27,500 bases of DNA from Candidatus Hydrogenedentota bacterium (GTDB taxonomy: Bacteria > Hydrogenedentota > Hydrogenedentia > Hydrogenedentales > JAGMZX01), in contig JAKQEQ010000066.1 of the NCBI GenBank assembly GCA_029556545.1, forward strand, positions 1 through 27,500, in the 5' to 3' direction. The notes under the pieces were generated by a model. It was not told the origin of the DNA, did no database searches, and saw nothing but the letters and a program-made list of their open reading frames with translations. Within the stretch, counting starts at the first letter, position 1. Every line of letters starts with the position of its first letter. The position numbers and the translations under genes were made by a program. Below, in pieces: positions 21,832 to 22,176 of this stretch.

Positions 21832-21878
21832 GGACCGCCTTTGGGAAGTAGTCTATTGCGTGAGTCTGCGCGGGGCAA

Positions 21879-21914
21879 GTTAGGGTTTAGGGTTTGGGGT
21901 TTGGGGTTTGGGGT
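21879..21914 (+). repeat. Left telomere-like heptamer array
   Basis: G-rich on the plus strand: GTTAGGG, then TTTAGGG, then three TTTGGGG units. Its consecutive GGG runs spaced by three or four bases could fold into a G-quadruplex in single-stranded DNA or RNA. Confidence 0.9.
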
Positions 21915-22026
21915 CTTGGTGACCTGCCCCCGTTTTATGTACCAACTTGAATGAGAGTATTTGCCTTGGTTTCGGGTCGTGGCTCCGGGGTGCAATGCGC
22001 GGCGAATTCCGCCGGGGTCACCGCCA

Positions 22027-22096
22027 CCCTAAACCCTGAACCCTGAACCCTAAACCCTAAACCCTAAACCCCAAACCCCAAACCCTAAACCCTAAC
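22027..22096 (-). repeat. Right telomere-like heptamer array
   Basis: About ten C-rich heptamers on the plus strand: CCCTAAA, CCCTGAA (twice), CCCTAAA (several), CCCCAAA (twice), CCCTAAA and CCCTAAC. It is inverted relative to the left array and twice as long. Confidence 0.9.
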
Positions 22097-22176
22097 CAAC
22101 ACCGTGCCTTCGAATGGCCATCTGTAGTATCCTTGACCCAGGCGGGTGTCATCGCCCCAAGAAGGAGACGGGTCGA

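Follow-up and report, generated by a model that had tools for sequence, protein, structure and literature searches.

Inverted heptamer arrays between cls and pilT

The window analysed here is a 27,500-nucleotide stretch (contig JAKQEQ010000066.1) of the draft genome of a Candidatus Hydrogenedentota bacterium, denoted G000. It contains the divergent genes cls and pilT, named so in the original prediction and confirmed by Pfam (PLD domains and T2SSE, respectively). The region between them contains an inverted pair of heptamer arrays (Table 1). The predicted 36-bp arms, 21879-21914 and 22061-22096, are indeed reverse complements at 35 of 36 positions (97%). As had also been noted, both arms start from a common GTTAGGG edge, and CAA borders the element on both sides. 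The edges read GGGGCAA-GTTAGGGTTTAGGGTTTGGGGTTTGGGGTTTGGGG on the left and CCCTAAACCCCAAACCCCAAACCCTAAACCCTAAC-CAACACC on the right, where the hyphen marks the element boundary.

The right array, of which the right arm is the outer half, has about double the length of the left one. The order of unit variants, read from the GTTAGGG edge, is identical in both arms. The repeat search also listed these arrays in longer registers that overlap one another. The inverted repeat extends to GGTGACC and GGTCACC at the inner edges, which may reflect chance or deletion microhomology. The CAA flanks are a possible but unproven target duplication. They are 3 bp long, against the 5-bp duplications at other loci described below, and cannot be confirmed as a duplication because the flanks are apart in the sister species.

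Table 1. Features of the region between cls and pilT (positions in the window)
Feature	Position	Strand	Description
Interval between synteny edges	21860..22101		Comparison with the sister species
Left CAA flank	21876..21878		Second copy at 22097-22099
Left heptamer array	21879..21914	+	GTTAGGG, TTTAGGG, three TTTGGGG; top strand G-rich
GGTGACC inner edge	21918..21924	+	Inverted copy GGTCACC at 22016-22022
IS3-type terminal fragment, interior	21920..22019	+	Search of a 251-bp region against the same genome
Right heptamer array	22026..22096	-	About ten units TTTAGGG/TTTGGGG/TTCAGGG on the minus strand

The interior is a terminal fragment of an insertion sequence present in full elsewhere in the genome. 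Positions 21920-21994 are identical to C63:177800-177874 and C43:35032-35106 (75 bp), and positions 21993-22019 to C63:177921-177947. The full IS on contig C63 is about 1.28 kb long, has the ends TGACCTGCCCCC and GGGGGACAGGCCA, contains an integrase-like reading frame, and was assigned to the IS3 type by eye. A 46-bp hairpin near the IS end is present in both other copies (C63 and C43) and absent from the window, as is the remainder of the IS. Therefore what remains in the interior is one IS end that has undergone two deletions. The full copy (C63:177800-179075; L090, L032) has AAAT on both sides and interrupts an apparent IS4-type transposase gene.

Genomic context

In the sister species, the sole congener compared, homology to the window ends at 21859 on the cls side and restarts at 22102 on the pilT side. 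There, cls adjoins a citramalate-synthase-like gene (cimA), and pilT is preceded by tsaD. Among the pilT loci of 22 relatives, some possibly cut by contig ends, at least five have tsaD upstream, and none has cls there. Thus the cls-pilT arrangement is derived, and the element lies exactly on the new junction.

One possibility is that this join is an assembly chimera, fused from a pair of contigs that carried heptamer arrays and IS ends. The genome is a draft, 75 bp of the interior are identical to two other places, and the flanks are apart in the sister species. However, the IS fragment in the window lacks the hairpin that both other copies have, and the arms agree in unit order. Moreover, in the same genome tsaD and the cimA-like gene are both internal to other contigs, where their neighbours are different; this favours a real rearrangement over an assembly error. 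We consider a chimera highly improbable, the assembly of the join being judged indirectly, from draft assemblies.

A strong long hairpin is predicted for the element (MFE -117.6 kcal/mol, z -6.7), and G-rich heptamers of this type form G-quadruplexes in vitro (PMC4692102). The arrays might be a functional regulator or structural element, folded as a hairpin, cruciform, or G-quadruplex and maintained between the two divergent genes; an effect on both genes through a cruciform or G-quadruplexes was suggested originally. However, arrays were found at none of the 22 pilT loci of relatives; the element is not conserved and lies on a new junction, and the conserved promoter-proximal sequence is outside it. 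Scans of the region found neither sigma-70-like promoters nor terminators, and a device of this kind is very unlikely. An Rfam scan of the region produced no match.

Heptamer arrays elsewhere in the genome

The genome has TTTAGGG-type arrays at about a dozen locations, most of them single and without an S23 gene, according to a census based on pattern matches and on some 380 kb of sequence selected in part for the arrays already known there. The original prediction was to fail if the arrays were single and unpaired throughout the genome. About ten further arrays are indeed single; however, paired ones also exist, in the window and on contig C33. The genome thus has at least two convergent pairs. 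If 13 to 40 array sites were placed at random in the 6.1-Mb genome, at least one convergent pair within 250 bp would occur with P = 0.002-0.016.

The search for the same arms with other interiors, proposed together with the prediction, was successful. On contig C192, TTTAGGG arrays enclose an S23 gene, the order being array, S23/IVP gene, array, apparent S23 remnant, inverted array. The second gene-less inverted pair, on C33, encloses a different spacer, unlike the interior in the window. Both loci support the earlier suggestion that the arms might be termini of a small mobile element. The S23 protein of this genome has its best match in XCC0516 of Xanthomonas campestris (PDB 2gsc). Only 5 of the 68 phylum genomes searched contain exact three-unit TTTAGGG arrays. 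Such arrays are missing from the sister species, as are S23 matches above the cut-off of the family.

A REP-like palindromic repeat, GGGGACTGGCACAAGC / GCTTGTGCCAGTCCCC, occurs at C33:32289-32600 (L092 12289-12600) and near 23.6 kb of C192 (L111 1435-1495); the C33 heptamer pair encloses a piece of this palindrome as its interior.

S23 genes and heptamer arrays

S23 genes (PF05635) were considered in three sets, each made up of the best-scoring matches, which do not sample the family at random; gene positions are approximate for a few loci close to contig ends. In the host phylum, period-7 arrays were observed within 500 bp of the gene at 22 of 30 loci (13 on both sides), other periods occurring at zero or one locus. 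Gammaproteobacteria have such arrays at 25 of 30 loci (14 on both sides), with every other period at zero. On plasmids, mostly cyanobacterial, the count is 10 of 14 (six on both sides), and here too no other period exceeds one locus. At the threshold used, 17 of all 74 loci have no array. The background density of period-7 arrays is 0.017 per kb (352 kb). Arrays were observed in 24/40 and 28/44 near flanks of S23 genes, against 0/40 and 4/44 outer flanks (700-1500 bp).

The two arrays of a locus are matched. In the 33 pooled two-sided loci, the mean mismatch between inverted units is 0.79 of 7 positions; for shuffled partners it is 3.18, and none of 20000 shuffles gave less than 2.15. The loci share a polarity as well, with a ratio of 43:4 in favour of G-rich left arrays and of 38:2 in favour of C-rich right ones. 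The units themselves vary between loci, e.g. GGGACCA, TAGGCTT, AGTAGGG, GTGAATA, TCAGAAT. Hence the plant telomere likeness seen in the original prediction amounts to period 7 and G-richness, as equivalent elements carry heptamers of many sequences. The unit is the same as in plant telomeres, (TTTAGGG)n, but the arrays of the window are very short, interstitial, bacterial, and form an inverted pair. With genes on both sides and units differing between equivalent elements, a relation to telomeres was ruled out.

The window element resembles S23 loci in having inverted, matching period-7 arrays with the G-rich one on the left. It differs in the absence of the gene, as an S23 profile search of the window produced no match. 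Could the two arrays have arisen independently, by replication slippage beside the IS fragment, at a locus that has nothing to do with S23? Many bacterial genomes do favour repeats of seven bases (see the reviews in PMC4679880 and PMC4692102), and most arrays of this genome are single. However, the common order of unit variants from the GTTAGGG edge, the low probability of a convergent pair given above, and the polarity and inversion shared with S23 loci all argue against slippage, which we consider unlikely.

As a general origin of S23 loci, the splitting of a single array by an inserted gene was rejected because the halves would then be direct and not inverted; 2 of the 33 two-sided loci look direct. 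One S23 gene (G076, C172:12527; L186 1208-2112) lies within two nested inverted array pairs, GAACATT inside GGAAGGG. The 1.5-Mb genome G404 (C1) has eleven weak PF05635 matches; ten of them are 300-bp stretches along one contig, several with identical scores, and possibly represent a multi-copy S23-like element family. A role of S23 as a defence gene was rejected, as PADLOC produced no match for it. One query of phage records returned no S23, and no link between S23 and heptamer arrays was found in the open-licence literature.

Empty sites and movement of cassettes

S23 cassettes on plasmids lie between genes otherwise found side by side, e.g. cas6/cas4 and nrdB/nrdA. Empty counterparts were found for three sites. 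At site (a), Trichormus L230 reads AAAAAGTAAT-cassette-GTAATTAACAAAT and the empty Fremyella L294 reads AAAAAGTAATTAACAAAT, with a 5-bp duplication GTAAT. At site (b), in Nostoc, L240 reads GGTTCTA-cassette-TTCTAGTTATG against GGTTCTAGGTTATG in L243, with the duplication TTCTA and one base lost. Site (c), from comparison of L243 with L235, is a second site in the same gene cluster as (b) and has TAATG/TTATG. The heptamer arrays are missing from the empty sites, and therefore they arrive together with the S23 gene. Comparison of cas6-cas4 (L221 and L241), nrdB-nrdA (L223 and L242), and plasmid sites B and C yielded no clean junctions, as the compared gaps differ.

Three cassettes (L224, L225, L230) belong to one S23 lineage, are 78-81% identical over the cassette alone, and have the same unit at different sites. 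The compared junctions show that at loci other than the window one the arrays and the S23 gene entered short intergenic gaps as one unit. Site (a) is also occupied in L295 (NZ_CP040277.1, 700-840), here by a decayed S23 cassette consisting of one array and an apparent piece of the gene. This locus shows a route from a full cassette to a solo array or relic.

The cassettes might move via RNA with a reverse transcriptase acting in trans, S23 playing a part similar to that of Avd in diversity-generating retroelements. S23 proteins do match bAvd (PF22296) weakly, with E from 6e-5 to 8e-10, below the cut-off of that family. However, matches to RVT_1 are absent from 7 of the 14 genomes searched (drafts), including the S23-bearing G000, G016, G058, G163, and G446. 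Since several S23-bearing genomes, that of the window among them, have no RVT_1 match, this mechanism is not supported and is extremely improbable.

Origin of the window element

The element between cls and pilT is probably a relic of a heptamer-ended S23/IVP cassette, gene-less, damaged by an IS, and immobile. In the intact form, such a cassette consists of an array, one gene for an S23/IVP four-helix-bundle protein (PF05635), and an inverted array. There is no S23 match in the window, and therefore we call the element a gene-less relic and not a full member. The same unit, TTTAGGG, occurs in the S23 cassette of C192 and in the gene-less pair of C33; a parallel situation is observed in the gammaproteobacterial genome G446 with GGGAATC.

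The following sequence of events may be suggested. A cassette, or a gene-less derivative of one, would once have been located between the present cls and pilT. An IS3-type element would then have inserted just inside the left array, and deletions would have removed most of the IS together with any remaining interior. Later, the locus would have become a rearrangement junction. The remnant can still form the predicted long hairpin but encodes nothing to move itself. The IS fragment occupies the interior nearly edge to edge, and no original cassette interior remains; the flanks are rearranged, and the window copy has no empty site.

On balance, we lean towards the view that S23/IVP cassettes form a widespread transposable class, whose terminal inverted repeats are heptamer arrays, each with a private sequence, a fixed period, and G-rich-first polarity. 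Much of the heptamers of Xanthomonas and cyanobacteria, and the window element as well, would then be gene-less or single-array relics of such cassettes, and arrays carried by cassettes may explain the scattered 7-base repeats in bacteria. To our knowledge, no known transposon ends keep the period and polarity but not the sequence. Intergenic heptamer repeats of bacteria have been recorded for decades and, as far as we know, there is no consensus on their origin; for S23 proteins a crystal structure exists, but no role known to us. If the heptamer repeats and S23 belong to a single mobile unit, either puzzle could be tested directly.

Relation to known repeats

The window element is similar to MITEs in being short, gene-less, and intergenic, in having inverted ends, and in being accompanied in its genome by a counterpart that carries a gene. 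However, in the class considered here the ends are tandem arrays that vary between elements, and the interiors vary between copies. MITE copies share both ends and interior, and this assignment was rejected, as the arms recur with other interiors and the interior in the window is an IS end.

The STRR heptanucleotide repeats are short, scattered between genes in heterocystous cyanobacteria, and described as simple repeats, not, as far as we know, as ends of gene-bearing units. S23 cassettes with short heptamer arrays of this kind occur on plasmids of the same organisms. STRR repeats are mentioned for Calothrix, and GGGGA(C/T)T heptamer arrays for Nostoc (PMC4692102).

The S23p-encoding intervening sequences of 23S rRNA, e.g. 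in Coxiella burnetii, are bounded by terminal inverted repeats forming a stem (PMC4990558). Like intact S23 cassettes, they contain an S23 gene enclosed by stem-forming terminal inverted repeats, and a long stem of this kind is also predicted for the window element. However, they reside in 23S rRNA and contain S23, whereas the window copy lacks it and is located between protein genes; nor is their terminal stem described as a heptamer array (PMC4990558). The hairpin predicted for the window element resembles this stem; that RNase III would cleave it is a guess.

In Xanthomonas, GGGAATC arrays form 70 to 75 convergent pairs, for which a general association with mobile elements was not found (Rehm et al. 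2015, PMC4692102); S23 is not mentioned in that study. These arrays are similar to those in the window in being of period 7, G-rich, and mostly intergenic, and the Xanthomonas ones often form close convergent pairs, but the unit in the window is TTTAGGG/TTTGGGG. Exact GGGAATC arrays were found in one of 369 sampled Gammaproteobacteria (G446). Gene-less convergent GGGAATC pairs with other interiors were observed on contigs C5, C2, and C19 of this genome. Two of them, at C2:93036 and C19:617806 (L257, L263), enclose the palindromic repeat CCCTCCCCTTCAAGGGGAGGG; heptamer pairs often seem to hold other selfish repeats. In the same genome, accB and accC, both named by eye, are separated by an S23 gene with at least one frameshift that lies inside GGGAATC/GATTCCC arrays.
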